Below, piece after piece: positions 3,649 to 17,304 of a DNA stretch of 23,676 nucleotides (the first letter of the stretch is position 1; each line of letters starts with the position of its first letter). Origin of the DNA: a virus; the IMG/VR virus record IMGVR_UViG_3300017769_000132, positions 1 to 23,676 of that record. One strand, written 5' to 3'. The position numbers and the translations under genes were made by a program. Under the pieces are notes generated by a model. That model was given only the letters and a program-made list of their open reading frames with translations. It did not search any database and was not told the DNA's origin.

Positions 3649-4536
3649 GTATCTTCTGATTCTTGGGGTATGTTAAATTATGGGCATAATACTTGGGGCA
3701 GTCAAGATGACGTAGTAATTACTCTTACAGGATTATCAACAACAGCTGCCGTAGGAACACCAACAGCGTTTCATGAAACAGGTTGGGGTGCTGACACATG
3801 GGGATTTGAAGGTTGGGGTGGAGCAAATACCATAATAACTTTACCTGGTTTAACCGCGACTACAGCCGTAGGAGATTTAACTGCTGTAATAAGACCAGGT
3901 TGGGGTACGTTAAACTGGGGTGAAAATAGTTGGGGTGATGTTGAAGGAACAGAATTTACTTTAAATGGTTTAAGTTTAACAACAAATGTTGGAGAGCTTG
4001 CACCAGAAGATGTTGTAGGTTTAACAGGTTTAACAGCTACTACTACATTAAATTCTTTATCATCCATTACAACAGATGCTACATTTACGTTGTCTGGTTT
4101 AAGCGCAACTTCTACTGAAGGACTACTTACAACTGATGATCATTCAGTAGGTTTAGTAGGACTATCAGCAACAACTGCTGTTGGAACTATTATTCCAGAT
4201 AATGTAATGGGCTTAACTGCATTAACTGCTCTTCAAACTAACGTAGGATCGTTTACCATATCTTCAGATCCAGTTACGGCTTTAACAGGAATAAGTGCTT
4301 CCACTACTTTAGGAACTGTTACTTCTTCACCGGTTACTATGGTAACCCTTACAGGTCAGTCTTTAACCTCTGCACTAGGCACAGTAACTACGATACAGGA
4401 AACTAATGCCTCTTTAGTAGGTCTAGGATTATCTGCTACAATAACATTAAATAATGTAGGAATATCATTTCCAGGTACATACGGAAGAATTATACCTAAA
4501 ACAAGCACAGGGTATACTAAGATAAATCCAGCATAA
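3340..4536 (+). CDS. Tail repeat protein with N-terminal cupredoxin-like domain
   Basis: This 398-residue protein has three parts. Residues 1-103 look like a cupredoxin-type beta sandwich: His46 in NYPAGHPFKFS, then Cys91, His94 and Met97 in YYYCSLHPYMGG. The order H...C-x2-H-x2-M matches type 1 copper ligands. Residues about 108-200 hold Trp-Gly-rich turns (NTWG, GWGADTWGFEGWGG, GWGTLNWGENSWG). From about 130 to 373 a 'GL(S/T)ATT..VG' unit recurs ten times, each separated by acidic or Thr-rich linkers. The C-terminus is basic. Marine phages commonly carry similar N-termini in tail-fibre-region proteins. Host-binding spike or fibre is inferred; copper binding is a prediction. The gene ends just before an internal promoter. 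Confidence 0.6.
   Translation: MSAIRTFTVTVANPGSGNRYYIDGVLQETVNLAEGYTYVFNYPAGHPFKFSTTSDGTHSGGVEYTTGVTHNSSTKVTIVVADSAPQLYYYCSLHPYMGGQANTVSSDSWGMLNYGHNTWGSQDDVVITLTGLSTTAAVGTPTAFHETGWGADTWGFEGWGGANTIITLPGLTATTAVGDLTAVIRPGWGTLNWGENSWGDVEGTEFTLNGLSLTTNVGELAPEDVVGLTGLTATTTLNSLSSITTDATFTLSGLSATSTEGLLTTDDHSVGLVGLSATTAVGTIIPDNVMGLTALTALQTNVGSFTISSDPVTALTGISASTTLGTVTSSPVTMVTLTGQSLTSALGTVTTIQETNASLVGLGLSATITLNNVGISFPGTYGRIIPKTSTGYTKINPA
3730..4458 (+). repeat. Ten degenerate 'GLSATT..VG' protein repeats
   Basis: Units start near residues 131, 170, 210, 230, 253, 273, 293, 316, 338 and 360 of the gene at 3340, about 20-40 residues apart. They share Gly-Leu-Ser/Thr-x-Thr-Thr followed by Val/Leu-Gly. The DNA is not a clean tandem repeat, so the repetition is old or kept by selection on the protein. 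A beta-solenoid or string of small strands on a fibre shaft is plausible. Confidence 0.6.
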
Positions 4537-4594: not shown

Positions 4595-5830
4595 ATGACA
4601 TCAGCATACACACCTCTTGGCGTAGAGTTAATGGTAACCGGCGAAAACGCTGGTACTTGGGGAACAAAAACAAATACAAATTTAAGTATCATTGAGCAGA
4701 TCTCTGGTGGATATATATCACAAGCTATTGCAGGATCAGGAACTACAGGATTTTCTAAAACTGATGGTGGAACAGGATCAGTTGTTGCAACAAGAGTTAT
4801 AGAATTTACAGGTGCTCTTACAGGATCAAGAATTGTTACATTTCCAGTTTTAACAGAAAATTTTTATTTAATTAAAAACACGACTACAAACGCAGAAACA
4901 TTACAACTTAAAGCAGCTTCAGGTTCAGGTGCAACAGTTACTTGGGCAACAGATGATAAAGGTTGGAAACTAGTTTATTTTGATGGTGTATCAACTAACA
5001 CTGGTGTTTATGATGTAGGTTTTGGCGATGGTGATGTAACTCTTACGGGAACACAAACTTTAACAAACAAAACTTTAACTAGCCCTAAAATTGGTACTAA
5101 TATTTTAGATACAGGCGGAAACGAATTAATTAATATTACTGCAACAGGTTCAGCAGTTAATGAATTTACAATTGCAAATGCTGCAACAGGTAATGCACCA
5201 ACTCTTTCAGCAACGGGAGAAACTAATGTTGGTATAAATATTAAACCAAAAGGAACTGGAGAAACAGTTTTTGGAACAGGTGCTGCCGCAGCGACACTTA
5301 CTACAAGTGGTGCTCATGACCTTGTCTTAGACACTAATTCTGGAACAAATTCTGGAAGTATTACTATTACAGATGCAGCTGATGGTGCTATTAGTTTAAC
5401 ACCAAACGGACTTGGAAGAGTAACTCTTGGTGCTGGTTCTATTCAAAACTTAGTTGAAAAAGCTACGGTATCAGCTACAGCAGCTACAGGAACAATTAAC
5501 TACGATGTTATAACACAAGCAGTTTTATACTACACATCTGCAGCAGCAGGTAACTTTACTCTTAACATAAGAGGAGATGGTTCAAATGCATTAAACGCAA
5601 TTATGGCTACAGGTCAGTCAATTAGTATTGTTTTTGCTGTAACATGCACAGGAACACCTTATTACAATTCTGCAGTAACCATTGATGGCGGTGCTATCAC
5701 TCCTGAATGGCAAGGCGGAGCTGCTCCAACAGCAGGAAATGCTAACTCTGTAGATATATATACATATACAATATTTAAAACTGGAGATGCTACATTTACA
5801 GCGTTTGCATCGCAAACACAGTTTGCGTAA
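4595..5830 (+). CDS. Tail-fibre-type structural protein
   Basis: In this 411-residue protein, residues 9-36 (GVELMVTGENAGTWG, then TNTNLSIIEQ) match the start of a tail-fibre/structural family common in marine phages ('LELM.TGENAGTWG..TN.NL..LE'). A beta domain (about 40-140) includes LVYFDGV. Residues 149-165 carry TLTGTQTLTNKTLTSP, a motif found in many phage fibres that often marks the neck of a trimeric shaft. The rest is Thr/Gly/Asn-rich beta structure (ITITDAADGAISLTPNG and similar). AGGAG at 4582-4586 supports the start, and a strong promoter lies just upstream. The role in host recognition is inferred from family and neighbours. Confidence 0.7.
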   Translation: MTSAYTPLGVELMVTGENAGTWGTKTNTNLSIIEQISGGYISQAIAGSGTTGFSKTDGGTGSVVATRVIEFTGALTGSRIVTFPVLTENFYLIKNTTTNAETLQLKAASGSGATVTWATDDKGWKLVYFDGVSTNTGVYDVGFGDGDVTLTGTQTLTNKTLTSPKIGTNILDTGGNELINITATGSAVNEFTIANAATGNAPTLSATGETNVGINIKPKGTGETVFGTGAAAATLTTSGAHDLVLDTNSGTNSGSITITDAADGAISLTPNGLGRVTLGAGSIQNLVEKATVSATAATGTINYDVITQAVLYYTSAAAGNFTLNIRGDGSNALNAIMATGQSISIVFAVTCTGTPYYNSAVTIDGGAITPEWQGGAAPTAGNANSVDIYTYTIFKTGDATFTAFASQTQFA

Positions 5831-5851: not shown

Positions 5852-6856
5852 ATGCCAATATTAGGATCAAGAGGGGCAGCGTCAGTAAAAGCTTTTGGTT
5901 TCACAGGCGGACCTGCAAAAGGTTTAATTAACGCTACAGGTGGAACTATTACTTGTGATGGTGATTATAGAATTCACACATTTACAGGGCCAGGAACTTT
6001 TTGTGTAGCCTGTATCTGTGCGTGTGTACCTGCTCCAACAAGAAAAGTTGATTATTTAATTTTAGGCGGTGGTGGCGCCGGAGGCCAAACAGGTAGATCT
6101 GGTGGCGGCGGAGCTGGAGGTTTTAGAGAATCTCACGAAGTTCCAATCTCTGGATCATACACAGCAAGTCCGGTAGCAACATCTAATTCTCAAACAATCG
6201 CAGCAGGAGGATATCCTATTGCAGTCGGTTCAGGTGGATCACCTGCTAACCCACCAACAGTTGCTCCAAACACAACAGCGTTTGGAATTTCTACAACTGG
6301 AGGAGGACAAGGAGCTCAAGAATGGAATCCAGGACAACGTCCAGGAGGAACAGGTGGATCTGGAGGCGGCGGTGGAAACGAAGCCGGTTCAGCGTCAAAC
6401 TCTGCTGGAAGTGGTAATGCTGGAGGATATTCTCCACCTGAAGGAAATCCAGGCGGTGGTGGAAGTGGAAGTCCCGGGGGACCGTGGTACGGAGCTGGAG
6501 GCGGAGGCGGCGGTGCTGCAACGTCAGGTTCTGGAGCACCCTCTTCTTTTAAAGGTGGTAATGGTGGTGTAGGTCACGGAACAGCAATTAGTCCCGAAGA
6601 CGGAACACCAGGACCCGATGGAGCATTAAGATATTTTTCCGGTGGCGGTGGTGGTAAATCACAAGCTGCTTGTGTACCTACTCCTATACGAGGAACAGGA
6701 GGATACGGAGGTGGCGGAGGCCAACCTGGTTCTCAAGTTTGTGGTATGAGTCCAGTATGTGTCGCTGTACCTGTAGGTGAAGATGGAACAGGTGGCGGAG
6801 CAGCATTTGGAACAGGCGCTGCAGGCGCTGTAATTATAAGGTATAAATTTAAATAA
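5852..6856 (+). CDS. Glycine-rich tail adhesin-like protein
   Basis: This 334-residue protein has an N-terminal part (GGTITCDGDYRIHTFTGPG, about 30-48) and a VDYLILGGGGAGG strand that match a marine-phage family whose usual form is 'GG..T..G.Y..H.FT..GTF....' followed by 'V.YL.V.GGGGGG'. Residues about 72-320 are dominated by Gly tracts with scattered Pro (RPGG, PPEGNPGGGG, DGTPGPDG). Such Gly-rich regions can fold as bundled polyglycine-II helices, as known for the T4-like phage S16 adhesin. Odd points are a Cys cluster, FCVACICAC (about 50-58), and more Cys at about 276 and 300-306. It probably tips or decorates the fibre. It overlaps the next gene by one base. Confidence 0.65.
   Translation: MPILGSRGAASVKAFGFTGGPAKGLINATGGTITCDGDYRIHTFTGPGTFCVACICACVPAPTRKVDYLILGGGGAGGQTGRSGGGGAGGFRESHEVPISGSYTASPVATSNSQTIAAGGYPIAVGSGGSPANPPTVAPNTTAFGISTTGGGQGAQEWNPGQRPGGTGGSGGGGGNEAGSASNSAGSGNAGGYSPPEGNPGGGGSGSPGGPWYGAGGGGGGAATSGSGAPSSFKGGNGGVGHGTAISPEDGTPGPDGALRYFSGGGGGKSQAACVPTPIRGTGGYGGGGGQPGSQVCGMSPVCVAVPVGEDGTGGGAAFGTGAAGAVIIRYKFK
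6065..6811 (+). repeat. Polyglycine-rich coding tract
   Basis: This covers residues about 72-320 of the adhesin-like protein. Gly runs of three to five recur with Ser, Ala, Pro and Asn between them. The DNA is GGA/GGT/GGC-rich and therefore much higher in GC than the surroundings, which is explained by the amino acids encoded. Confidence 0.7.
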
Positions 6857-7293
6857 TGGCTAACTTTGCAAAAATAGATGACAACAACGTTGTTCTTACT
6901 GTATTACATGTAGACGATAAAGACTGTCTAGATGAAAATGGAAATGAATCTGAAGCAGTGGGTCAAGCTTATTTAGAAAAGCATAATAATTGGCCAGCTA
7001 ATAAATGGATTCAAACTTCAAGAAATACTATTCATGGAGTACATGCATTAGGCGGAACTCCTTTTAGAGGACACTTTGCTGGAATAGGTTTTACATGGGA
7101 TTTAGAAAACCAACAATTTTTTCCACCCAAACCAAATTATCCATCTTGGATAAAAAATTTAACTATATCAGATTGGGAATCTCCAGCTGGACCTAAGCCA
7201 GAACAAACTGAAGCTATGGATACAGACAATACACAATGGGTTTGGAGTGAAGAAAACCAAGCTTGGGAAGTTGTAGATAGCTCTACTCTTTAA
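6856..7293 (+). CDS. Conserved fibre-associated protein of marine phages
   Basis: The 145-residue protein opens MANFAKIDDNNVVLTVLHVD, followed by DENGNESEAVGQAYLE, KWIQTS, then FAGIGFTWD and FFPPKPNYPSW. Its C-terminus has two Trp-containing strands (QWVWSEENQAWEVV). This order is characteristic of a small family found beside tail fibres in cyanophages and pelagiphages, usually 'MA.FA.LD..N.V..V..V'; the function is not settled. A chaperone or minor fibre part is possible. It overlaps the adhesin stop (TAATG). Its own stop overlaps by 4 bases the stop of the convergent gene on the minus strand, with no terminator hairpin visible. Confidence 0.65.
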   Translation: MANFAKIDDNNVVLTVLHVDDKDCLDENGNESEAVGQAYLEKHNNWPANKWIQTSRNTIHGVHALGGTPFRGHFAGIGFTWDLENQQFFPPKPNYPSWIKNLTISDWESPAGPKPEQTEAMDTDNTQWVWSEENQAWEVVDSSTL

Positions 7294-7829
7294 TAACAAA
7301 CATCACCAGCATTAACATACGTCAAAGTCTGAATATAATTTAGATGAGAATTATTTTTGTTTTCAATATAATATGATAGCGTAGCTGGAAACATAACAAA
7401 TTTATTTGTTTTTAAATCTACCGTCCAGGTTTTATTTTTTTTTCTATTATCATCGTATGTAATAATTATTTTACAACTACCTGGATCTATTTCTACTCCA
7501 TACAAACACACCCAATCAGGAGAAGCTTTAAGATTAAAAGGATTTACTTCAAGTATAGGTTTTGATATTTCATTTCTTTCATAATATTTAGCATAAGGAT
7601 GATGTCCATCTCCTCTAGTAATAAGATAGTTATGGTCAACATGCATATATTCTCTTATAAAAGTTTCAAGTCTATCTCTTGTTTTATAAAATTTATCCTG
7701 AACATCTTCATAGTAATGTGAAATAGTTATGTGTTTAACCATTTCATCTTTTTCAATATGCCATTCTTTAGGCATATTTACATCACCTACAAATAAAGGG
7801 GTATCTGTTAATATGTGTTTTTTAATCAT
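7290..7829 (-). CDS. Degenerate double-stranded beta-helix (2OG-oxygenase-like) protein
   Basis: In this 179-residue protein the C-terminal half reads like the core of phage 2OG-Fe(II) oxygenases: DWVCLYGVEI (about 105-114), CKIIITYDDN, TWTVDLKTNKFVMFPATLSYYI (about 134-155, in two strands), then a last strand IQTLTYV. The FPATL turn is normally followed by the distal iron-binding His; here the residues are Ser-Tyr-Tyr. No HxD is found at the expected place before the GVEI strand. So it is probably a non-catalytic or altered-metal relative, perhaps a partner of the active enzymes. It is the last gene of the minus arm and overlaps the carbamoyltransferase by 8 bases. The fold call is moderate. 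Confidence 0.4.
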   Translation of the reverse strand: MIKKHILTDTPLFVGDVNMPKEWHIEKDEMVKHITISHYYEDVQDKFYKTRDRLETFIREYMHVDHNYLITRGDGHHPYAKYYERNEISKPILEVNPFNLKASPDWVCLYGVEIDPGSCKIIITYDDNRKKNKTWTVDLKTNKFVMFPATLSYYIENKNNSHLNYIQTLTYVNAGDVCY

Positions 7830-9453
7830 CTTTCATCACAATCTTTTCTTCATCTACAAAATATATAGCATCTAACGAACTATTTTTCAATGTCAGTAAT
7901 GCATCTTCTTGAGTCTGAACTAAGGCTTCTCCTGCTAAATTAAAACTGGTGTTTAATAATACCGGACATTTTGTATCCACATAAAATTGTTTTAATAATT
8001 TATATAAAAAACCTTCAGAAACTGTTTGTACTCTGCATGTATTATCTACATGCACAACTCCAGGAATTTTAATTTTAGGTAAAACATTAAAATTTATTGT
8101 CATGTAAGGACTTTCTTTTAGGTCTAAAGTTTCAAAATATTTTTTAAATTCAGTTTTTAAAACAACTCCTGCAAAAGGTCTGTACCATTCTCTTTTTTTA
8201 ATATTGTTAACAATTTGTTTAGCATCAGAGTGTCTTGGATCAAATAATATACTTCTATGTCCCAATGCTCTAGGTCCTGCTTCAGGGTTTCCTTCAAATA
8301 TTGCTACACTTTTTTTATCTGCTAGTAGTTTAGATATTTCTTTTATATTAGATTTTTTACCTATCTTTAATTTTTCTTTTTTATAGTAGTGGTAAAAATT
8401 ATCTGTACATGGATGTACAAGTTTTTTAGTCTCTTCTTTATATTTCAACATTGCGGCCCCTATAGGTACACCTGTATCATCTGCAACTGGTTCAAAATAA
8501 AAATTAACATTTGGTAAGTTTTTTAAATAAAAATTATTAGCTACTACATTTAAAGCGTAACCTCCCACCATACAAACATTTTTAATACCTGTGCTTTTTA
8601 CATATTTTTTTATTAAACGTAAAGATTGTTCCTGTGTTTCTGTTTGTACTAACCTAGCTTTATCTGCATAAAAATTATAATTAGTTTTATTAATGTCTTT
8701 GGTTATAGAGTTTTCACAATTATAAAAACACACACTATCATCTTTTAAAAAACTAAATTTATTTGAATCAGGTATGTTGTTTACAAAAAGTTTTTCATTA
8801 TTAAGTTTTTTTCCATAGGAAGCAAGTCCCATTGTTTTGCCGTTTTCTAAAACATGTTGACCAATTAAAGTAGTAGCAGCTTCGTACACTCTAGTAATAC
8901 CTAATGAATTATTAGAAGAAATATCGCAGTCAGGATAATATTGTTTTAATGAATTTAAAATATTATATTTTTGAGATTCTTTATTTAATTCTAACCAAAA
9001 GTTTTTTGAAATACATTCAAGTTTATTTTTATTTGCTACAAAAACACTTTCACTTTCTCTAGCCACAGATTGTCCATCTTTAAAAAAAATGCTTCCATTT
9101 CTATCTATTACAAAAACTAAAGTTTTTTTAAATTTACTATTATGATAAGCTAAACTAGCATGACATTTGTGATGTAACAAAGAAGAATAATTTTCCATTT
9201 CTATATTAAATTTTTTATTAACATAGTTTCTCCACACATGTTCTATGTCTGGCTCACAGTTAGAGGGAGTTAAATAAAGCACATGATCTACTTTACCTAA
9301 CTTTAAATTTTCATATAGCTCCATGGATTTAAAAGGATGTTTGTCTCTTTTCTTACGAGTCAATCTTTCTTCTTTACAAAAAAATTCTATCTTACCATTT
9401 AACAAACTACATACTGCACTATCGTGTGCAATATTAAATGCTAGAATTCTCAT
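7822..9453 (-). CDS. O-carbamoyltransferase, NodU/CmcH/TobZ family
   Basis: With the ATG at 9453 the protein is 543 residues, a usual length for the family. These enzymes make a carbamoyl-adenylate from carbamoyl phosphate and ATP and pass the carbamoyl group to a hydroxyl. The N-terminal Kae1-like domain shows HHKCHASLAYH (about 94-104, with the HxxxH metal site), FVIDRNGS, MGLASYGK (about 208), VGGYALNVVANN (about 296) and PVADDTGVPIGAAML. The C-terminal domain shows AGPRALGHRSIL (about 392-403), YRPFAG, RVQTV and LLNTSFNLAGEALV. All main signatures are present, so it is probably active. A TTG six bases upstream is possible, but the ATG overlaps the preceding stop as TAATG and is preferred. 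Substrate unknown. Confidence 0.9.
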   Translation of the reverse strand: MRILAFNIAHDSAVCSLLNGKIEFFCKEERLTRKKRDKHPFKSMELYENLKLGKVDHVLYLTPSNCEPDIEHVWRNYVNKKFNIEMENYSSLLHHKCHASLAYHNSKFKKTLVFVIDRNGSIFFKDGQSVARESESVFVANKNKLECISKNFWLELNKESQKYNILNSLKQYYPDCDISSNNSLGITRVYEAATTLIGQHVLENGKTMGLASYGKKLNNEKLFVNNIPDSNKFSFLKDDSVCFYNCENSITKDINKTNYNFYADKARLVQTETQEQSLRLIKKYVKSTGIKNVCMVGGYALNVVANNFYLKNLPNVNFYFEPVADDTGVPIGAAMLKYKEETKKLVHPCTDNFYHYYKKEKLKIGKKSNIKEISKLLADKKSVAIFEGNPEAGPRALGHRSILFDPRHSDAKQIVNNIKKREWYRPFAGVVLKTEFKKYFETLDLKESPYMTINFNVLPKIKIPGVVHVDNTCRVQTVSEGFLYKLLKQFYVDTKCPVLLNTSFNLAGEALVQTQEDALLTLKNSSLDAIYFVDEEKIVMKDD

Positions 9454-10085
9454 TACCAATTTTTTTTATTTTTAAACCAGAACGGTAGACCAACGTGAGG
9501 TCTTTTATCAAACATGTTGTCCTTAGCACCTTTACGTTTTGCATTATTATAGTGAAAGAAAATTTGAACACAGTCTTCTTTTCCTTTGAAGGGTTCTCTC
9601 CAATGTTCTAAATCTTCTCCTTTGTAAACCAACATATCTCCAACTTTTAAATTTATTTTTTTTCCTTTCATTCCTTCTTTTCCAGAAGGTTCAATATAAA
9701 TAGGCCAAGGGTCACCCCCTAAGTAAAGTGTTGTAGATATCTCACAACTAAATCTGTCTTTGTGTCTTTTAAGAATATCTCCTGTTTTATAAGATCTTAG
9801 AAAAGTGTAGTTTGGATATAGTTTTAAACCCGTAGCTTTTTCCATAAGAGGTTGAAGCTTTAACATTAAAGTTTCCATAGGAATATCTGCATAAGCAACA
9901 AAAGTGTTTGGAACTTGTTTGTCTCCCCATCTTCCAAATGCTGTTTCCATGGGAGATATGTATTGACGATTTCGCATAGTTGTAAAACATTGTTTTTTTA
10001 CTACGACATAGTTATATAAAAATAAAGCTAGTTCCTTAGAAACAGCTTTTTTAATAACAATGTATTTGTCTTTTTTAAAACTCAT
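9453..10085 (-). CDS. 2OG-Fe(II) oxygenase, prolyl-4-hydroxylase-like
   Basis: Residues about 89-180 of this 210-residue protein form the double-stranded beta-helix: YPNYTFLRSYKTGDILKRHKD with the HxD pair His108 and Asp110, the ISTTLYLGG strand, VGDMLVYKGEDLEHW with the distal His161, and CVQIFFHYN as the last strand. Basic residues Lys167/Lys169 or Arg163 could hold the 2OG carboxylate. The N-terminus (MSFKKDKYIVIKKAVSKELA) matches a marine-phage P4H-like family I know. It would hydroxylate a protein or small molecule using 2-oxoglutarate and O2; substrate unknown. It overlaps the upstream gene by ATGA and the carbamoyltransferase by TAATG, so the three are translationally linked. Confidence 0.8.
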   Translation of the reverse strand: MSFKKDKYIVIKKAVSKELALFLYNYVVVKKQCFTTMRNRQYISPMETAFGRWGDKQVPNTFVAYADIPMETLMLKLQPLMEKATGLKLYPNYTFLRSYKTGDILKRHKDRFSCEISTTLYLGGDPWPIYIEPSGKEGMKGKKINLKVGDMLVYKGEDLEHWREPFKGKEDCVQIFFHYNNAKRKGAKDNMFDKRPHVGLPFWFKNKKNW

Positions 10086-10684
10086 GAAAAATACCTAACA
10101 GGATGTTTTAATTTAATATTTGCTGCCATACTTATTCTTGTACCTTTACTTTTAAAAGAGTTTACTACATGACGAAGATTAGCTGGGAATATATACATAT
10201 CCCCTTCTACTGGTTTTGCTTCTACATCTGTTATACAATGTGGTCTGTCTTCTCCGTAAATAAATTTAATACCACCGGGTCCGGCTGTGTCTCGACCTAC
10301 GTAATCATCACTTTCTTTTTTTAAAGAATCAGGAATTTGTAAATATAGTACACAAGAAAAATCACCATCATGTGTATGTGGTGGATTAGAATCACCTGCT
10401 TTCATAATATTTACCCAACAGTACTCAACAATGTAATCTTTACTTGGCAAGGTTGTGTTATAGTAATGTTCATAAAAATTAAAATAACTGTTAAATTGTT
10501 TTTCAACATTTTTTTTAAATTCTTTTATATCATAAGAATAAGTTTCATTAATATGAGAAGCTAAATGTTTATTGTAATTATATTCTTTTTTAATTTTTTT
10601 AAGCATGTCTTTATACTTATCTACTTTTGTTTTAAATAGTAGTGGACCAAAATAAAAAAACCTATTTTGTTGTTCACTAGACAT
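10082..10684 (-). CDS. 2OG-Fe(II) oxygenase-like protein (PF13759-like family)
   Basis: I start this gene at the ATG of MSSEQQNRFF (10684), giving 200 residues. It overlaps the upstream stop by 8 bases; the 18 extra residues of the longer frame lie inside the upstream gene. Core features are YCWVNIMKAGDSN, then PPHTHDGDFSCVLYL (His103/His105, the ligand-bearing turn of this family), GDMYIFPANLRHVV (distal His172) and RISMAANIKL (Arg183, 11 residues on, for 2OG). A 16-residue acidic/aromatic N-terminal stretch (FFYFGPLLFKTKVD) is also typical. Phages often encode such proteins without known substrate. Probably active; the exact first-ligand pair is uncertain. Confidence 0.7.
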   Translation of the reverse strand: MSSEQQNRFFYFGPLLFKTKVDKYKDMLKKIKKEYNYNKHLASHINETYSYDIKEFKKNVEKQFNSYFNFYEHYYNTTLPSKDYIVEYCWVNIMKAGDSNPPHTHDGDFSCVLYLQIPDSLKKESDDYVGRDTAGPGGIKFIYGEDRPHCITDVEAKPVEGDMYIFPANLRHVVNSFKSKGTRISMAANIKLKHPVRYFS

Positions 10685-11336
10685 GTTCCTGCTTTCTAAC
10701 TGCCTGAAGATTAAAGTGTATAAATCTAAAAGGATCAATACCCAGATCTACTGAAAACTCATGTTCAAGATAAGCCGGAAAAAGTATAAGGGTTCCAGGT
10801 TTTGGTCTATAGTGAATAGATCCGCTACCCATTGAAACTTCGTTAGGATTTTTTAATGGTAACATTGACATCGTTTTAGCAACTCTAGGATCTTTAAGTA
10901 TTGGATGAGAAGTATGCTCAGAGCTTTTTAAAAAATAGAAACCACTAATATGGTTATCATAATGTATATGAGCGTTATGATATCCCGCACCTTTTTTTGA
11001 AAATTCTTGTACCCACATTTCAGTCCACGTCATGTCATAAGTAGTCATGTCATAACCTAAGTGATCCATTATTTCTAATGATCTTCTTTCAACATATCCT
11101 TGAATGTCAGCAAATGCAGGAAGACCAACTAAAGGCCCGGAGTGATGAGTCATGCCTAGATCTCCAATTTTTTTACCAAGAGCTTTATCTCTCTCTTTAC
11201 TTAATATTTTATTTTTTCCTTTTGCATATTTTATATGCGGTTCTGACGCTTCATTTAATTTGTCTAATAATTCTGGTAACTGAGTTACATAGACTGGTGT
11301 TTGAAAGTATGTTTCAAAATGTATATTTTCGTTCAT
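10677..11336 (-). CDS. 2OG-Fe(II) oxygenase-like protein (PF13759-like family)
   Basis: In this 219-residue protein the core reads WTEMWVQEFSKKGAGYH, AHIHYDNHISGFYFLK (His123, His125 on the ligand turn), PGTLILFPAYLEHEF (distal His192) and FRFIHFNL (Arg204, 12 residues on). 'H.H....SG.YYL ... G.L.LFP..L.H' is the signature of this putative 2OG-Fe(II) oxygenase family. The N-terminal FETYFQTPVYVTQL also fits ('lF.TPvy..'). It starts within the ATGA overlap with the upstream gene and has a good AGGAGG six bases ahead, inside that gene. It is a paralogue-type neighbour of the gene at 10082, but the two are strongly diverged. Confidence 0.75.
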   Translation of the reverse strand: MNENIHFETYFQTPVYVTQLPELLDKLNEASEPHIKYAKGKNKILSKERDKALGKKIGDLGMTHHSGPLVGLPAFADIQGYVERRSLEIMDHLGYDMTTYDMTWTEMWVQEFSKKGAGYHNAHIHYDNHISGFYFLKSSEHTSHPILKDPRVAKTMSMLPLKNPNEVSMGSGSIHYRPKPGTLILFPAYLEHEFSVDLGIDPFRFIHFNLQAVRKQEHV

Positions 11337-11956
11337 CTAAATGGACCTCCTAAATTCCATATTACTAATGAGTATCTTGTACCCTTAGTTACTGGTTTTA
11401 CTCTATGCCAAAGAAAACTTGGAAATATAATAATTGTTCCTTTAGGAACATCGGATAAAGTAATTATATTTTTTTTATTTGTATTAGTCGGGTTAGCTAT
11501 GTTTATTTCTAATTCTCCTCCTTGGTAATCTTCGGGATTAGATAAAGAACAAGTTACAGATAACTTTCTTATTTTGTTATGTTTTTCTAATTCGTTTGGA
11601 GCTTTATAAGGTTTTTTCCAAGAATCTACATGCCAAGTATAGTGTTGATTAAGTTGATATTTAGTAAACTGACAAGCCTCGCTATAGTCCCATTCAAAAT
11701 TCCAATTAGCATCTTTGTTAGCTTGGTTTATATAGGGGTGTATTTCTCTGTATATCCAAGAACCATCCATCCATATAATATTAGAATCTCGTGTTTTTTT
11801 TAAATCTTTTATAGCCTTAATATTTGTAGAATGAGGTTTATGATTACCCGTCCAACCTAATAGCTCTTCTTTAGTTTTAGAATGTTCAATTAAATCATCA
11901 CAAAACTTAGGTGTTAAGACCGATTTAAATACCCAACAATAGTTTTCTAGTTCCAT
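11333..11956 (-). CDS. 2OG-Fe(II) oxygenase, PHD/PiuC-like
   Basis: In this 207-residue protein all expected active-site residues are in place. YTWHVDSW gives His109 and Asp111, RKLSVTCSLSNPEDYQGGELEI is the conserved strand-turn of PHD-type enzymes (in two parts), KGTIIIFPSFLWHRV gives His184, and Arg194 lies exactly 10 residues later (GTRYSLVIW). The N-terminal NYCWVFKSVLTPKFCDDLI is the usual helical cap. It is the first gene of the minus arm, 58 bases from the divergent plus arm. The start is preceded only by a weak GAAAGAG. It is the clearest of the seven oxygenases; PHD-type enzymes hydroxylate Pro or other residues, but the substrate here is unknown. Confidence 0.85.
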   Translation of the reverse strand: MELENYCWVFKSVLTPKFCDDLIEHSKTKEELLGWTGNHKPHSTNIKAIKDLKKTRDSNIIWMDGSWIYREIHPYINQANKDANWNFEWDYSEACQFTKYQLNQHYTWHVDSWKKPYKAPNELEKHNKIRKLSVTCSLSNPEDYQGGELEINIANPTNTNKKNIITLSDVPKGTIIIFPSFLWHRVKPVTKGTRYSLVIWNLGGPFR

Positions 11957-11979
11957 GTCTCTTTCATTTTTTTAGTTTT

Positions 11980-12006
11980 ATTATCACAAAAATAATATAT
12001 ATTCAA
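11980..12006 (-). promoter_or_regulatory. Possible minus-arm promoter in the divergent intergenic gap
   Basis: Read on the minus strand, TTGAAT and GATAAT are 15 bases apart, with a TG upstream of the -10 as in extended -10 promoters. The spacing is short, so this is tentative. The 58-base gap 11957-12014 must also hold the plus-arm start signals. The run aataatatatatt (11991-12003) is a weak -10 candidate on the plus strand, and no clear ribosome-binding site precedes the ATG at 12015. Confidence 0.35.
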
Positions 12007-12014
12007 GATCTAGA

Positions 12015-12344
12015 ATGACCATATTAGAAAGATTTGAAAGGTATTTAACTAACGTAGAGCGACCCACTAAACAAAGCTCTTGGAATATTGCAGGTATTCT
12101 AAAAGATAAAAATGCTTTTTTTAAATTTGATGTTAGGGATCTTACTAAAGCTTCTAATAATAGAGGTTTTAAAAAAGGAAGTTTAAAAAGTAAAGCTGAC
12201 AAAATGGTATTTGAGTTTAAAGATCAATGGGTTATTTTAGATATGGAAGAGCTGAATGAATACGTAAAGAATAGCGAAAGTAAAGATTTTGAGTTAGGGG
12301 AAATTATACCTAAACTTGATTGGAATATGCTTATAATAAAATGA
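12015..12344 (+). CDS. Small conserved marine-phage protein, function unknown
   Basis: This 109-residue, charged, soluble protein has FERYLTNVERPTKQSSWNIA, FFKFDVRDLTKASN, then KADKMVFEFKDQWVILDMEE (about 60-79) and a last stretch ending PKLDWNMLIIK. The 'KADKMV.E..DQWVILD.EEL..Y..' pattern is one I recall from cyanophage and pelagiphage hypotheticals, often near structural genes. I do not know a function. It leads the plus arm, so it is made first and could be a regulator, adaptor or scaffold for the enzymes that follow. The ATG has no good ribosome-binding site. Its TGA overlaps the next ATG (ATGA). Confidence 0.6.
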   Translation: MTILERFERYLTNVERPTKQSSWNIAGILKDKNAFFKFDVRDLTKASNNRGFKKGSLKSKADKMVFEFKDQWVILDMEELNEYVKNSESKDFELGEIIPKLDWNMLIIK

Positions 12345-12883
12345 AATTATTTTATAAAGAAGATAAAGATTTTTTATCACCAGAAGATAAACATACTTTA
12401 GATGAAATTACTCTACATGGATTCTTTCCTTTTTATTTACAAAAAAATACTATTGGAAAAGATAACAAACATTTTTTAAGTCACATTATTGTAGGCAGAA
12501 TAGAACAAAGAAAGAAAAATGATAAAGGTATTAACTCTAAATATGCAGATTTTTTTATAAAAATATTAAATCAATTTTGTAATAAAAATAAAATTAAATA
12601 TAAAAACATATTAAGATATTCTCTTAATGTAGCTTTTTATGATGGAGCAGATAAATCTGGAACACATGTTGATCATGACTTTCCACACAAACAATTGATT
12701 ATTTATCTAAATGATCCTATGGATATAAATTCACATACAGTTCTTTTAAATAAAAAAGAAGATAAGATTATAAAAAGAATTACTCCTGAAAAATTTAAAG
12801 GAGTTTGTTTTAACCAGTGTCCTCATTATATGGTTTACCCTAAAAGAGGTCACAGAATAATTGCAATAGCAACGTTTAATTAA
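12341..12883 (+). CDS. 2OG-Fe(II) oxygenase-like protein
   Basis: With the ATG at 12341 (ATGA overlap with the previous stop) it has 180 residues; a longer TTG-initiated frame from 12320 is less likely. Active-site residues are visible. SLNVAFYDGADKSGTHVDHD gives His109 and Asp111, followed by QLIIYLND. FNQCPHYMVYPKRGHR gives His162, with Arg172 exactly 10 residues on, and IIAIATF is the final strand. The N-terminal part (about 1-90) is Lys/Asn-rich and not recognisable. It belongs to the same broad superfamily as the minus-arm enzymes but is not close to any of them. The substrate is unknown; the next gene begins one base after its stop. Confidence 0.75.
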   Translation: MKLFYKEDKDFLSPEDKHTLDEITLHGFFPFYLQKNTIGKDNKHFLSHIIVGRIEQRKKNDKGINSKYADFFIKILNQFCNKNKIKYKNILRYSLNVAFYDGADKSGTHVDHDFPHKQLIIYLNDPMDINSHTVLLNKKEDKIIKRITPEKFKGVCFNQCPHYMVYPKRGHRIIAIATFN

Positions 12884-12884
12884 T

Positions 12885-13991
12885 ATGAAGATAACTATTT
12901 TAGGAAGAGGAAACGCTGGATGTATTTCTGCAATGCATTTTGCTCATTTTAAAAAACAATTAAATACAAAAATAGATATAGAACTTATCTATGACTCTAG
13001 TATTCCTCCAGTACCTACTGGTCAAGGAACTACGTTAAGTTTTCCAGAAAGATTGTTTGAAAATTTTGGAGCAAGTTACTTAACTAATTTTCCCTATACA
13101 ATTAAAACAGGTATTATGTATGAAAACTTTGGTAAGAAAAATAAAAAAATTTATCACAATTTTCCTTTAGGAACTTATGCTTTACACTTTGAACCTAAAC
13201 AATTTCAAGACTATGTGTGTAACAATTTAAAAATTAATTTTAAAGAAACAGATGAAAACATACATAACTTAGATAGTATTGATTCTGACTATATAATAGA
13301 TTGTAGAGGAACACCTAAAAATCTAGATAACTATGATAAATTACACAATCCTTTAAACACTGCATTATTGGGTAGTCTTCCTAAAAAAGAAAATGATGTG
13401 TTATGGACCAGATCTATCGCCCACAACAATGGTTGGTGTTTTTATATTCCTTTACCTCAAAAAACTTCTCTAGGTTATTTATTCAACAAAAATATTACTA
13501 GTGTTGTAGATGCCAAAAAAGATTTTAAAAAAACTTTTAAAGTTACTGATGCAAAAGAATTTAGTTTTAATCAATACGTAGCAAAAGAACCTATAATAGA
13601 TAACAGGGTTTTATTAAATGGAAACAGGCTTTTCTTTTTAGAACCGTTAGAAGCTACAGCCATGGGAATGTATATACAAACTGCTAGGTTTTATTATGAC
13701 TATATATTTAATAATACTAGTAAATATCAAACAGGTTTAAATATTAAAGATCATGTTAATAAAGTACAAAATTTTATATTGTGGCATTATGCAAACGGTT
13801 CTACTTATAAATCTAAGTTTTGGAATCATGCTAAAAATATTTGGGATGAAAACAAAGATGAAGATTTTTTAAAACTTTTAAAAATTATAAAAGGAATGAC
13901 AAAAGAAGATATAGAAAATAGTGTACATACTTCTTTTAAATATGCTCAATGGAAAGAATGGAATCTTAAATTATGGCAAGATCAAGTATAG
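12885..13991 (+). CDS. Flavin-dependent (tryptophan-)halogenase-like protein
   Basis: The 368-residue protein is shorter than PrnA-type enzymes (about 530). Residues 1-17 (ITILGRGNAGCISA) form the GxGxxG FAD-binding fold. VPTGQGTTLSFPERLF (about 43-58) and TIKTGIMYENF (Lys74, matching the catalytic Lys region of PrnA-type halogenases) follow. NGWCFYIPLPQKTSLGY (about 183-198) aligns with the halogenase WxWxIP signature but has Phe186 for the second Trp. FFLEPLEATAMGMY (about 250-263, Glu256) aligns with the catalytic Glu/chloride loop. It could halogenate an indole or other electron-rich ring, or be a relative with another oxidation. A flavin reductase partner is not seen. Similar genes occur in marine phages. 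Confidence 0.75.
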   Translation: MKITILGRGNAGCISAMHFAHFKKQLNTKIDIELIYDSSIPPVPTGQGTTLSFPERLFENFGASYLTNFPYTIKTGIMYENFGKKNKKIYHNFPLGTYALHFEPKQFQDYVCNNLKINFKETDENIHNLDSIDSDYIIDCRGTPKNLDNYDKLHNPLNTALLGSLPKKENDVLWTRSIAHNNGWCFYIPLPQKTSLGYLFNKNITSVVDAKKDFKKTFKVTDAKEFSFNQYVAKEPIIDNRVLLNGNRLFFLEPLEATAMGMYIQTARFYYDYIFNNTSKYQTGLNIKDHVNKVQNFILWHYANGSTYKSKFWNHAKNIWDENKDEDFLKLLKIIKGMTKEDIENSVHTSFKYAQWKEWNLKLWQDQV

Positions 13992-14461
13992 AAATAATAG
14001 ATAATTTTTTACCGATAGATGTATTTAAAGATATACAGAAAAAAGCAATGGAGTTGCCCTACTTCTATACCCCTAATATTACATTTGAAAACAAAGAAGA
14101 TTATAATTTTTATTTAACTCATGTAGTGTATAATGACCATGCTCCTAATAGTCCTTTCTTTCAAGACATAAAAGTAATTATAGATAAAATAGGAAAAGAT
14201 TTATTTTTAAAAAGAATTAAAGTTAATTTTTATCCTAGAACAAATAAACTTATTGTTCATGATAAACACAGAGATAATAAAAAATCTCATAAAGGAGCTT
14301 TATTTTCTTTAAACACCTGTAATGGGGGAACTTACATTGGAGATAAATTTATTAACTCTGTAGAAAATAGAATGCTGTTTTTTGATCCAAGTAAATTTCA
14401 CCGCAGCACTAACTGTACTGATCAACGTGCAAGGTTTAATATTAATTTTAATTACTTTTAA
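13973..14461 (+). CDS. Small 2OG-Fe(II) oxygenase-like protein
   Basis: This 162-residue protein is compact for the superfamily. RIKVNFYPRTNKLIVHDKHRD ends the first ligand turn (His99-x-Asp101). Then come GALFSLNTCNGGTYIGD, RMLFFDPSKFHRS (distal His143) and RARFNINFNYF (Arg152 or Arg154, 9-11 residues on). The short N-terminus (IEIIDNFLPIDVFKDIQ) is a normal helical cap. It overlaps the halogenase-like gene by 19 bases, a strong sign of linked expression. This is a plausible direct partner of the halogenase-like enzyme. Confidence 0.7.
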   Translation: MARSSIEIIDNFLPIDVFKDIQKKAMELPYFYTPNITFENKEDYNFYLTHVVYNDHAPNSPFFQDIKVIIDKIGKDLFLKRIKVNFYPRTNKLIVHDKHRDNKKSHKGALFSLNTCNGGTYIGDKFINSVENRMLFFDPSKFHRSTNCTDQRARFNINFNYF

Positions 14462-14464
14462 CAT

Positions 14465-15070
14465 ATGATTCATAATTTATTTCCTACCCCTATCTATCAA
14501 GCAGATTTAAAAGAACCTATTTCAAATAAAATTTTAAATAATAAAGTTGTGTATAAAGAAAATAAAGGCAACAAAACTAGTGAGAATAATTATATTTTAG
14601 AACAACCTTTGTATTTAAATTTAAAAAAAGAATGCCAGTCCCACCTAGAAGAATATTACAAAACAATTATAAATACAAAAAATAATGTAACTCCTTATAT
14701 TACGCAATCTTGGTTAAATGAAACTAAAGAAAAAGGATATCATCACACACATAACCATCCCAATAGTATTATATCTGGTGTGGTATATTTTAATGCTGAT
14801 CCTAACAAAGATAGTATCAGAATATACAAACCTAAAATAGGACAGGATTATTCTTTACAATTTTTAATGTATCCTAAAGAATACAATGCATGGAATTCTC
14901 ATGATTTTGTACTTCCAGTAAGGTCCAATTCAATTATATTATTTTCTTCTTATTTATCACATTCCGTAGATACTAAGAATTCTCCTAATATTAGGACTAG
15001 TTTGGCTTTCAATAGTTTTGTAAAAGGTGTAATAGGTGATCAAGTTAATCTAGATTTATTACAAATATAA
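14465..15070 (+). CDS. 2OG-Fe(II) oxygenase-like protein (PF13759-like family)
   Basis: In this 201-residue protein, the start NLFPTPIYQADL fits the family ('lF.TPiy'). TQSWLNETKEKGYHHTHNHP (His96, His98 on the ligand turn), IISGVVYFN, SNSIILFSSYLSHSV (distal His166) and RTSLAFNSF (Arg177, 11 residues on) complete the signature. It is the third PF13759-like member of the cassette, after those at 10082 and 10677. It starts 3 bases after the previous stop, with a weak ribosome-binding site. It is the last cassette gene; the structural run resumes 17 bases later. Confidence 0.75.
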   Translation: MIHNLFPTPIYQADLKEPISNKILNNKVVYKENKGNKTSENNYILEQPLYLNLKKECQSHLEEYYKTIINTKNNVTPYITQSWLNETKEKGYHHTHNHPNSIISGVVYFNADPNKDSIRIYKPKIGQDYSLQFLMYPKEYNAWNSHDFVLPVRSNSIILFSSYLSHSVDTKNSPNIRTSLAFNSFVKGVIGDQVNLDLLQI

Positions 15071-15087
15071 CTATATAGTGTGATATT

Positions 15088-17304
15088 ATGCTACAAAAAT
15101 TAGGATTTTTACCAGGTTTTAATAAACAAGTTACATCTACCGGCGCTGAATCACAGTGGACAGGTGGTACAAATGTTCGTTTTAGATATGGCACACCTGA
15201 AAAAATAGGTGGTTGGTCTCAATTAGGGAACAGTAAACTAACTGGCGCAGCTAGGGGTTTACATCACATGGTAAATAAAACAGGTATTAAGTACTCTCTT
15301 ATCGGCACTAATAGAATTTTATACGTTTATACAGGAGGTGTTTATTATGATATACACCCTTTAGTTAATCCATTAGGTACAACTATTACAAATGGATTTA
15401 GCACAACTAACGGTTCACCTGTAGTAACTATTACTTTTCCAGCAGCACATAATTTTGAAACTGGTGACATTATATTATTTGGTGATGCTAGTACATTTGT
15501 TGCTATTACGGGATCTAATTTTGTTGCTGCAGATTTTGCTGATAAAAAATTTATGGTAACAGCAGTATCTGGAACAGCATTAACTATTACAATGCCTAGT
15601 AATGAAACAGGGGGAGGAGCAACTACTTCTGGAGGAATAACTTATTTTCAATATTATCATGTAGGACCACCTGATCAGGTTGGAGTATTTGGATGGGGTA
15701 TATCTCAGTACGGGGGAACAGCAAGTAGTCCTCAAACTACTACACTAGTTGGAGCATTAAATAATGATGCGTTTGGAACTGGGGGAACAGGAACTACAAT
15801 TAATGTAGCAAGCACAGCTAACTTTCCAACAGCAGGAACAAATTATATACAAGTAGGAACAGAAGAAATATCTTACACAGGAGTAACAGCTACAAGTTTT
15901 ACCGGAATTACTAGAGCAGTTAGAGGAACCACTAGAGCTTCGCATCTTAATGGTGCAACCGTAACTGATCATAGTAATTATTCTGGATGGGGTCAAGCAG
16001 CAGCGACCACGGATAAAGTTGCAGAACCTGGTATGTGGTCTTTAGACAATTTAGGAAGCACTGCTATTGCATTAATATTTAATGGTGAATGTTTTGAATG
16101 GAACTCAGATCTAACTAATGCTGTAAGAACAAGAGCAACAATTATATCTGGTGCACCAACTGCATCTAGAGATATGTTAGTATCTACACCCGATCGTCAC
16201 TTAGTTTTCTTTGGCACTGAAACAACTATTGGAGATAAATCTTCACAAGATGATATGTTTATAAGATTCTCGTCTCAAGAAAACATTAATGAGTATACAC
16301 CCACAGCTGAAAATAGTGCTGGCACACAAAGACTGGCCGCTGGATCACGGATCATGGGTGCTAAACTTGGTAGAAATGCACTTTACGTTTGGACAGATAC
16401 GGCTTTATTTACTATGCGTTTTGTTGGAACTCCATTTACATTTGCTTATGAACAAGTTGGTACTAACTGTGGATTGATTGGTAGGAATGCAGCTGTTGAA
16501 GTTGACGGAGCTGCGTATTGGATGTCTGATAATGGTTTTTTTAGATACACCGGTAAACTAGAATCTATGGACTGTTTGGTTGAAGATTATGTCTATGACA
16601 ATTTAAACACAACATCTAATCAAATGGTTTATGCGGGTATTAATAACTTGTTTGGTGAAGTTACTTGGTTTTATCCAGAGTCTGGTTCTAATATAAATAC
16701 ACAATCAGTTACTTATAGTTATTTAGATTCTACAGCTAAACGACCTATTTGGTTTGTAAATGCGAGTAGTTTATTTATTAGAACTACTTGGCAGGATTCT
16801 GCTGTGTTTGGTTTACCACATGCAACTCAATACGATGCAGGTGATGATGACTCATTTGATGTAGAAGGTAATACAGAAGGAATTACTTATTACTATGAAC
16901 ATGAAACAGGAGTTAATCAAATAAGAGGAGGAGTAACAACAGCTATTCCAGCTAACATTACCTCTGGTGATTATGATATTACACAAAAAGTTGTAAGAGG
17001 AGCAGCTACTAACATGGCTGATCTTAGAGGAGATGGAGAAAACATTATGAGAGTAAGTAGAATTATACCTGACTTTATAAATCAACAAGGAAATTCTATT
17101 ATACAATTAGATTTAAGAAACTATCCAAACGATGCAGCTGCTAGTTCATCATTAGGTCCTTTTACAATTTCTTCTACTACAACAAAAGTTGACACACGTG
17201 CAAGAGCAAGATCAATAGCTCTTACAATATCCAACACTGCAGTAGATACTAGTTGGAAATTAGGTACGTTTAGATTAGATATACATGCTGGAGGAAGAAG
17301 ATAA
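15088..17304 (+). CDS. Tail nozzle / packaged-DNA-stabilisation protein, P22 gp10-like (predicted)
   Basis: The 738-residue protein begins LGFLPGFNKQVTSTGAESQW, then GGTNVRFRYGTPEKIGGW. This opening is common to large tail proteins of marine podovirus-like phages and resembles P22 gp10-type tail-hub proteins. About residues 100-170 and 235-296 are inserted beta modules; the second is shared with the protein at 1275. A beta-propeller-like middle follows (WSLDNLGSTAIALIFNGECF; ALYVWTDTALFTMRFVG; GAAYWMSDNGFFRYTG). The end, RARARSIALTISN then SWKLGTFRLDIHAGG, is highly typical of the family. The ribosome-binding site is weak. Its stop overlaps the next ATG (TAATG). Confidence 0.65.
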   Translation: MLQKLGFLPGFNKQVTSTGAESQWTGGTNVRFRYGTPEKIGGWSQLGNSKLTGAARGLHHMVNKTGIKYSLIGTNRILYVYTGGVYYDIHPLVNPLGTTITNGFSTTNGSPVVTITFPAAHNFETGDIILFGDASTFVAITGSNFVAADFADKKFMVTAVSGTALTITMPSNETGGGATTSGGITYFQYYHVGPPDQVGVFGWGISQYGGTASSPQTTTLVGALNNDAFGTGGTGTTINVASTANFPTAGTNYIQVGTEEISYTGVTATSFTGITRAVRGTTRASHLNGATVTDHSNYSGWGQAAATTDKVAEPGMWSLDNLGSTAIALIFNGECFEWNSDLTNAVRTRATIISGAPTASRDMLVSTPDRHLVFFGTETTIGDKSSQDDMFIRFSSQENINEYTPTAENSAGTQRLAAGSRIMGAKLGRNALYVWTDTALFTMRFVGTPFTFAYEQVGTNCGLIGRNAAVEVDGAAYWMSDNGFFRYTGKLESMDCLVEDYVYDNLNTTSNQMVYAGINNLFGEVTWFYPESGSNINTQSVTYSYLDSTAKRPIWFVNASSLFIRTTWQDSAVFGLPHATQYDAGDDDSFDVEGNTEGITYYYEHETGVNQIRGGVTTAIPANITSGDYDITQKVVRGAATNMADLRGDGENIMRVSRIIPDFINQQGNSIIQLDLRNYPNDAAASSSLGPFTISSTTTKVDTRARARSIALTISNTAVDTSWKLGTFRLDIHAGGRR
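15790..15975 (+). repeat. Protein-level repeat module, copy 2 (in the gene at 15088)
   Basis: Residues about 235-296: TTINVASTANFPTAG, then EEISYTGVTATSFTGITRA and HLNGATV. It matches the module at 1668-1904 in order and spacing. Probably an immunoglobulin-like or small beta insertion on the virion surface. Confidence 0.55.

Follow-up and report, generated by a model that had tools for sequence, protein, structure and literature searches.

The window, a 23,676-nucleotide stretch of viral DNA (IMG/VR record IMGVR_UViG_3300017769_000132), carries inside its tail gene cluster a cassette of eleven genes. In our moderately confident reading, the cassette represents one variant of a highly variable island, whose enzymes form a modular set for the post-translational modification of the Gly-rich adhesin made by the phage itself. 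The genes lie at 7290–15070 in two divergent arms, six on the minus strand (7290–11956) and five on the plus strand (12015–15070), with structural genes on either side; all the open reading frames listed in the preliminary description are present. This island lies between the Gly-rich fibre gene and the tail gene TP. It is AT-richer (GC 26–31%) than the flanks (33–49%), and the low dN/dS of its genes against relatives (mostly 0.06–0.27, one value of 0.39) indicates that they are real. The features are as follows.

4595..5830, plus strand: s7, tail fibre with a conserved N-terminal region, on the 5' side of the site
5852..6856, plus strand: s8, Gly-rich fibre, adhesin-like, Gly_rich_2-like (PF21722), with 8 Cys; the proposed substrate (Cys contexts)
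6856..7293, plus strand: s9, small fibre-associated protein (PHROG 7759), whose similarity tracks island content
7290..7829, minus strand: g1, pseudo-oxygenase, 2OG fold without the metal triad (alignment, AF2, Foldseek)
7822..9459, minus strand: g2, putative O-carbamoyltransferase of the NodU/TobZ type (Pfam; PDB relatives 7xb6, TobZ)
9453..10085, minus strand: g3, prolyl-4-hydroxylase (P4H)-fold oxygenase, PHROG 2954, H108xD110..H161 (triad and fold)
10082..10738, minus strand: g4, 2OG-FeII_Oxy_5/TIGR02466 type, H121xH123..H190..R201 in the listed ORF (profiles, alignment)
10677..11336, minus strand: g5, TIGR02466-type oxygenase, H123xH125..H192..R204, which goes with Cys-bearing Gly-rich fibres
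11333..11956, minus strand: g6, PKHD/PiuC-like 2OG oxygenase, PHROG 61, H109xD111..H184..R194 (profiles, alignment)
12015..12344, plus strand: g7, small conserved protein (17-sequence alignment)
12320..12883, plus strand: g8, 2OG-type oxygenase, PHROG 274, H116xD118..H169..R179 in the listed ORF (PHROG, alignment)
12885..13991, plus strand: g9, flavin-dependent halogenase (Trp_halogenase PF04820, E 1.8e-29; catalytic Lys and Glu)
13973..14461, plus strand: g10, 2OG-type oxygenase, PHROG 274, H99xD101..H143..R154 (PHROG, alignment)
14465..15070, plus strand: g11, 2OG-FeII_Oxy_5/TIGR02466 type, H96xH98..H166..R177 (profiles, alignment)
15088..17304, plus strand: TP, conserved tail protein (PHROG 3287), the 3' boundary of the site

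The starts of g2, g4 and g8 are probably the internal ATGs at 9453, 10684 and 12341, respectively. Judged by its tail genes, with s2–s5, s9 and TP in an order common with the isolates HTVC023P and HTVC027P, the window is a fragment of an HTVC023P-type pelagiphage, in agreement with the marine-phage origin proposed earlier; the host assignment is presumptive. Phages of this type are very common in the ocean. No near-DNA relatives of the window are present among the GenBank phages.

Seven genes are intact and match 2OG-FeII_Oxy_5, 2OG-FeII_Oxy_3 or the corresponding PHROGs in Pfam and PHROG profile searches. All seven have a conserved metal site, as the preliminary description suggested, but the canonical HxD motif is found in four: the HxD..H triad of g3, g6, g8 and g10 occurs in 100% of the aligned homologues of each gene, while g4, g5 and g11 lack HxD..H and feature HxH..H and a conserved Arg. 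HxH is also seen in the solved relatives 3bvc and 2rg4. By their sequences, g4, g5 and g11 appear to be TIGR02466/2OG-FeII_Oxy_5 relatives with putative metal and cosubstrate use. The g1 gene is indeed a degenerate relative: its predicted structure has the 2OG fold (AF2 pLDDT 89.1; Foldseek matches to PHD2 and 3bvc with E about 2e-5), and across 31 aligned sequences no His or Arg of the metal triad or the 2OG-binding position is conserved.

The published label of PHROG 2954, ferrochelatase, is contradicted for g3 by both the triad and the fold, and is wrong. The triad is kept in 41/41 homologues, and the predicted structure is a double-stranded beta-helix (AF2 pLDDT 92.8). A sequence search of PDB yielded only spurious matches, so folds were compared instead; the best Foldseek match is the Pseudomonas putida P4H 4j25 (E 1e-8, probability 1.0). 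Ferrochelatase is absent from the Pfam and NCBIfam matches of g3 and from its best 50 PDB folds.

Profile matches agree with the earlier assignment of a NodU/CmcH/TobZ carbamoyltransferase (g2), a halogenase-like gene (g9) and a gene of no recognised family (g7). In g2 both Carbam_trans domains exceed the cut-off (PF02543, 71 bits; PF16861, 174 bits, E 2.5e-51). The catalytic Lys (TIKTGI) and Glu (EPLEAT) of g9 are kept, TIK aligning with TIK and EPLEAT with EPLEST of a solved halogenase, and presumably are equivalent to K79 and E346 of PrnA. The WxWxIP motif is represented by WCFYIP, with the second Trp replaced; since WxWxIP or its variants are missing from some flavin halogenases (PMC8407142), g9 may nevertheless function as a halogenase. 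No Pfam or PHROG profile matches g7 above the cut-off, and a gallidermin-like hit (E 0.015, under the cut-off) was taken as chance.

We compared 72 distinct islands occupying this site. Oxygenases are present in 72/72, on average 5.3 per island, whereas the halogenase and the carbamoyltransferase each occur in a minority (12 and 10 islands, respectively). The two occur together in four islands, marginally above chance (p=0.055), and these four include the window and L004, which are closely related to each other. L007 and L008 lack the carbamoyltransferase but keep nearly all the rest of the cassette, in L006 a different carbamoyltransferase lies at another place, L009–L013 and L016–L022 have halogenase relatives outside the island, and some islands contain sulfotransferases. 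Thus, the set of tailoring genes in the preliminary description stands, but its dedicated oxygenase–halogenase–carbamoyltransferase pathway does not: the components reassort among relatives, and the scattering and mutual independence that were to speak against it are partly observed.

The Gly-rich fibre precedes the island in 59/72 cases. The s8 protein matches Gly_rich_2 over the whole domain at 18.4 bits (E 0.0024), under the cut-off of 24.3; relatives include fibres that are clear members of PF21722, e.g. that of L074 (71.7 bits, E 1e-19). Island content correlates with fibre similarity (partial Mantel r=0.27, p=0.006) and with s9 similarity (r=0.35, p=0.002) when TP similarity is controlled; the correlation with TP similarity, fibre controlled, is not significant, although TP is equally adjacent. 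In L004 and L008 the segment of s8, s9 and the cassette is mostly 62–91% identical, and TP only 46%; the fibre and the island have been transferred jointly, as a block, between different tails.

The linkage to the Gly-rich fibre is found in several phage groups. Our second sample comprised 24 other marine myophage genomes with 21 Gly_rich_2 clusters, and the expectations came from a circular-shift null that ignores the clustering of tail modules and the relatedness of the genomes. With these reservations, 14 of the 21 clusters have at least three oxygenase genes within 8 kb (expected 3.0, p=2e-4). Four have a halogenase no further than 1.5 kb away (expected 0.45, p=6e-4), and five have a carbamoyltransferase no further than 3 kb away (expected 0.79, p=8e-4). 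Some observations count against modification of the adhesin: four phages have a tail-collar fibre, no Gly-rich protein, and yet oxygenases at the same site, and the g3 relative of P-SSM7 and Syn30 adjoins dam and clamp-loader genes.

Enzyme content matches the residues of the fibre. The top two of 360 enzyme-by-residue tests are g5 with Cys (p=1e-9) and g3 with Pro (p=3e-5). At least three Cys are found in 18/20 fibres with g5 and in 1/39 without it (p=5e-12), while s7, s9 and TP show no such difference between g5-positive and g5-negative phages. On the TP tree, 13/14 independent pairs are concordant for g5 and Cys (p=0.0018), and further loci give 6/6 versus 1/9 (p=0.0014). Pro-Pro occurs in 40/49 fibres with g3 and in 0/10 without it, 7/7 pairs on the TP tree being concordant (p=0.016); in isolate genomes, the Pro content of the fibre is 5.9% versus 2.9% depending on g3 proximity (p=2.5e-4). 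PPxG, considered as the prolyl target, is present in 26/49 g3-positive fibres of the lineage and absent from myophage fibres, hence general Pro content is the better statement. On the fibre tree, each of the two matches has three supported independent contrasts, all concordant and not significant; it may be, then, that fibre and enzyme genes are related only through inheritance as a block.

The other enzymes yield less. A halogenase–His match is suggestive in two sets (p=6e-4 and p=0.004), is unsupported on the TP tree, and remains a lead only. The Trp and Tyr content of fibres in this lineage is the same with or without the halogenase, which, like the failed His match, counts against modification of the adhesin; the Trp-rich WG repeats of s6 were rejected as its substrate, being likewise present in both cases. 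Oxygenase number is unrelated to fibre length or K/Y content, and the carbamoyltransferase shows no convincing match to fibre residues.

The main competitor, still unlikely, is a cargo hot spot: the conserved flanks (the s7 N-terminus and TP) would permit exchange of any DNA, and the enzymes would ride beside the fibre while serving other ends. The scarcity of fibre-tree contrasts is in its favour, as are the closest TP pairs, which have almost no island genes in common, and the dS between the window and L003, which climbs from g1 towards TP and so fits recombination breakpoints. It leaves unexplained why the fibre differs in residue content when s7, s9 and TP do not, and why myophages, whose tail architecture is different, have the same type of fibre next to the same types of enzyme.

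It is rather improbable that the enzymes modify the host surface, glycans or outer-membrane proteins, perhaps as a barrier to superinfection or to keep progeny from adsorbing to debris. Co-variation with the fibre would then arise because both concern the receptor, but no tie would be expected between the identity of the enzymes and the Cys and Pro content of the fibre itself, whereas such a tie is observed. The island does adjoin a receptor-binding gene, some islands have sulfotransferases, and NodU-type carbamoyltransferases act on hydroxyls of small molecules and sugars (TobZ and PDB relatives); the core oxygenases are similar to protein hydroxylases (P4H, PHD2, PiuC), although the fold includes small-molecule enzymes too.

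Auxiliary metabolism, in which the genes would alter the host's metabolism of 2-oxoglutarate, iron or haem in line with the literature on marine phage 2OG genes, is very unlikely. A 2OG/nitrogen role has been proposed for cyanophages (PMC3037559), the g3 type is taken for a ferrochelatase in PMC9599517 and PMC11561400, and host iron uptake is up during HTVC027P infection (PMC12753301). However, g3 is not a ferrochelatase, higher iron uptake equally fits supply of Fe(II) to the island enzymes, and the many diverse oxygenases beside a single fibre gene are easier to reconcile with specific substrates than with turnover of 2OG in bulk. We give hardly any credence to modification of the phage DNA, or to a fixed pathway making a small compound that is halogenated and carbamoylated: the enzymes are of natural-product tailoring types and the viral halogenase VirX1 uses small aromatics as substrates (PMC8407142), but no scaffold-building genes are seen in the window, the halogenase and carbamoyltransferase are optional, and the published DNA-hypermodification genes of this phage type are thymidylate-synthase-like and located elsewhere (PMC9599517).

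Hence, of the targets listed in the preliminary description, the fibre protein is the only one with specific support, from co-transfer, recurrence in other phage groups and enzyme–residue matching; DNA, host glycans and a small molecule gained none here. If the adhesin is the substrate, s8 would be the receptor-binding protein or part of it. Its modification by the island enzymes would take place as the virion is assembled, and each enzyme would have its own kind of side chain, with prolines hydroxylated by g3 and cysteines the target of g5. The remaining oxygenases, together with the halogenase, carbamoyltransferase or sulfotransferase where present, would act on further residues or newly made hydroxyls, with g1 maybe a non-catalytic partner. 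Phages would exchange fibre and enzymes jointly by recombination in the conserved flanks, so that the chemistry of the adhesin would shift along with host-binding specificity; the phage could benefit from a change in binding or stability, or by escaping changes in the receptor.

More tentatively, several marine phage families may tailor their Gly-rich receptor-binding proteins by a code that is exchangeable and works residue by residue, enzyme types being matched to adhesin residues, though we would not yet rely on this. The pairs would be P4H-like enzymes with Pro, HxH oxygenases with Cys, flavin halogenases perhaps with His, and carbamoyl- and sulfotransferases with hydroxyls; adhesin chemistry beyond the 20 amino acids would evolve with host range.

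If the fibre is modified, a long-unexplained marine viral gene set, whose oxygenases have so far been treated as metabolic, gains a concrete role, phages use extended amino-acid chemistry in host recognition, and the published ferrochelatase annotation and the iron/haem reasoning dependent on it need correcting. The enzyme–residue matches give exact mass-spectrometry predictions for existing isolates, among which HTVC023P and HTVC033P have both g3 and g5.

Mimivirus L230 and the chlorella-virus P4H are viral hydroxylases thought to modify Gly/Pro-containing viral protein, as in prolyl and lysyl hydroxylation of collagen. Unlike collagen, Gly_rich_2 is not a Gly-X-Y repeat, and the islands combine and exchange several types of enzyme that are unrelated to one another. 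By resemblance, s8 may be likened to gp38, the PGII tail-fibre-tip adhesin of S16, T2 and PP01, for which we know of no tailoring enzymes. Both are Gly-rich, fibre-associated and variable (PMC12892980). The g9 protein is a detectable relative of the phage flavin halogenase VirX1 (PDB 6qgm; PMC8407142), differing in length (368 versus 531 aa) and in having WCFYIP. Titles and abstracts, with the subscription literature mostly outside our scope, contained no precedent for hydroxylation of phage fibres or tail tailoring by oxygenases or halogenases.

In PMC9599517 and PMC11561400, the 2OG oxygenases and the 'ferrochelatase' of HTVC023P-type pelagiphages are described as auxiliary metabolic genes, and no link to the fibre is made in the sections consulted. 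These are the same gene types in the same phage group (PHROG 61 and PHROG 2954, at the same site in HTVC023P and HTVC027P), but our analysis makes g3 an oxygenase with the P4H fold and the site a fibre-tied island, and we propose a protein substrate. The marine T4-like phages have 2OG oxygenase, prnA and carbamoyltransferase genes, enzyme families common to the window island, for which roles in nitrogen metabolism and DNA repair have been proposed (PMC3037559). They differ in being myophages and in having oxygenases at other sites too, but in S-SM1, S-RSM4, S-CAM8, P-RSM4, S-SSM5 and S-RIM44 runs of these enzymes adjoin a fibre gene and a Gly-rich gene, as in the window.

The window is a 23,676-base IMG/VR fragment of an HTVC023P-type pelagiphage. 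Its tail protein (TP) and structural gene s4 match the isolates HTVC027P, HTVC023P and phage 023Pt_psg01, and the gene order around the site is common to the window and these phages. Eleven genes in two divergent arms (g1–g6 and g7–g11) lie between TP and the fibre genes s7–s9 (tail fibre, Gly-rich adhesin-like fibre and small fibre-associated protein, respectively), confirming the cassette as a whole as observed in the preliminary description. In homologue alignments, HxD..H residues are conserved in g3, g6, g8 and g10, and HxH..H together with an Arg in g4, g5 and g11. For g1, the metal triad was not found among the conserved residues of homologues, but the AF2 model (pLDDT 89) still matched 2OG enzymes. 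The carbamoyltransferase g2 retains both domains; the halogenase g9 retains the Lys and Glu expected for the family, with WCFYIP replacing WxWxIP. The dN/dS values of the island genes are mostly 0.06–0.27 (a single value is 0.39), hence the genes are under purifying selection. The structural gene s6 (3340–4536) contains eight repeated WG motifs; WG repeats are seen in its homologues from most relatives, regardless of the halogenase.

Relatives were gathered via the halogenase, TP, s7, the HTVC023P TP and the carbamoyltransferase; ORFs were called, and families were assigned by HMMs built in this analysis. The s7-to-TP span yielded 72 distinct gene strings (islands), a count that, like those below, depends on our ORF calls and HMM thresholds; sampling sites are partly shared by seven loci sets. 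No island lacks an oxygenase (mean 5.3, up to 11 per island); g6 is present in 65 and g3 in 58, the latter never without g6 (p=2e-6). Sulfotransferases occur in five islands and methyltransferases in two. The preliminary description suggested a dedicated hydroxylase–halogenase–carbamoyltransferase pathway; a fixed set of this kind is not supported, as the halogenase is present in 12 islands, the carbamoyltransferase in 10, and both in four (p=0.055). Relatives of the window halogenase also lie outside the island, either upstream of s2 or on the far side of TP (L009–L013, L016–L022). Phages with a tail-collar fibre and no Gly-rich fibre (L081, L091, L102, L106) have antisense oxygenases of other family combinations at the same site. 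Many relatives (e.g. L036, L074, L091) carry a second variable gene of about 190–445 aa downstream of TP, before t2; the window has none there.

The g3 gene requires a separate comment.

9453–10085, minus strand: g3, PHROG 2954, labelled 'ferrochelatase'

Genes of this type are taken as ferrochelatase in PMC9599517 and PMC11561400. The AF2 model of g3 (38-sequence input alignment, pLDDT 92.8) has prolyl-4-hydroxylases as its top PDB folds (P. putida P4H 4j25 and 4iw3, E 1e-8; PHD2), no ferrochelatase is among the best 50 folds listed, and H108, D110 and H161 are invariant in the homologue alignment. Fold and metal triad thus contradict the label used in published pelagiphage work. PHROG 274, 'DNA endonuclease V', likewise takes in HxD..H oxygenase-type genes (g8, g10). 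In P-SSM7 (L291) and Syn30 (L292), a g3 relative is situated between dam and clamp-loader genes, distant from any fibre, possibly reflecting a different role of the family. A search of 84,980 genomes of bacteria and archaea matched g3 almost only in phage-like contigs within marine SAGs or MAGs (L298–L308); only L303, L309 and L310 seem to be of another kind.

Of the 72 islands, 59 follow a Gly-rich fibre gene. Island genes are almost unshared between the closest TP pairs, and the window, L004 and L008 have the cassette, s8 and s9 in common, mostly at 62–91% identity, with TP only 46% identical. In partial Mantel tests, island content is associated with the fibre (r=0.27, p=0.006) and with s9 (r=0.35, p=0.002) after TP, and no tie to TP is seen after the fibre. 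Exchange anchored in the conserved flanks could also produce this co-variation of island and fibre.

The enzymes of an island go with the residues of its fibre. When enzyme families were tested against the amino-acid make-up of the Gly-rich fibre across the 59 islands (360 tests), g5–Cys ranked first (2.06% vs 0.24% Cys, p=1e-9) and g3–Pro second (6.7% vs 3.4% Pro, p=3e-5); both survive the Bonferroni correction. At least three Cys are found in 18/20 fibres with g5 and 1/39 without it, and Pro-Pro in 40/49 with g3 and 0/10 without it. No Cys difference between g5-positive and g5-negative islands was observed for s7, s9 or TP. The Cys contexts vary from fibre to fibre, hence these residues do not represent a single inherited motif. 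Independent pairs on the TP tree, a tree unlinked to island content, are concordant in 13 of 14 cases for g5–Cys (p=0.0018) and in 7 of 7 for g3–Pro-Pro (p=0.016); the fibre tree provides just three supported pairs for each, concordant or undecided and not significant. Further loci repeat the g5 association with at least three Cys (6/6 vs 1/9, p=0.0014). Among 20 isolate genomes, Pro content differs by the presence of g3 within 7 kb (5.9% vs 2.9%, p=2.5e-4), a cut-off picked once positions had been seen; at 12 kb, p=0.019. The small protein g7 (12015–12344) is present in 11 of the 72 islands, and fibres are Pro-richer in its presence (p=6e-4, one of the 360 tests).

An oxygenase run adjoining a Gly-rich gene is also found in HTVC033P, HTVC008M, Mosig, S-CAM8, S-SM1 and S-RSM4; in all but the first, this gene is the sole match to Gly_rich_2 (PF21722) genome-wide. 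In 24 myophage genomes, at least three oxygenase genes lie within 8 kb of 14/21 Gly_rich_2 clusters (3.0 expected, circular shift, p=2e-4), a halogenase within 1.5 kb of 4/21 (p=6e-4) and a carbamoyltransferase within 3 kb of 5/21 (p=8e-4), these p-values being guides only, since it was enzyme hits that first led to these genomes, the genomes are mutually related, and the distance cut-offs are our own. Cyanophage halogenases are situated 0.5–1.2 kb from Gly_rich_2 genes in S-RIM44, P-TIM40, syn9 and S-CREM1 (L290, L338, L339, L342). The proteins encoded by these Gly_rich_2 genes are His-rich (3.2–5.2%), a possible halogenase–histidine match. In HTVC008M (L107), the halogenase is about 8 kb away.

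The simplest account is a modular enzyme set modifying the Gly-rich adhesin. Fibre proteins were among the targets suggested initially; this choice is backed by several independent computations and is unproven. Given the prolyl-4-hydroxylase fold and the residue match, g3 would act on Pro of the adhesin; g5, with an HxH..H site unusual within the 2OG superfamily, may act on Cys, judging by the residue match alone. Host iron uptake is raised during HTVC027P infection (PMC12753301), which would suit Fe(II) enzymes and is no evidence for the substrate. In T2-type phages, Gly-rich proteins at the fibre tip bind receptors with hypervariable loops carried by a PGII lattice (PMC12892980), and by analogy s8 may bind its receptors in the same way.
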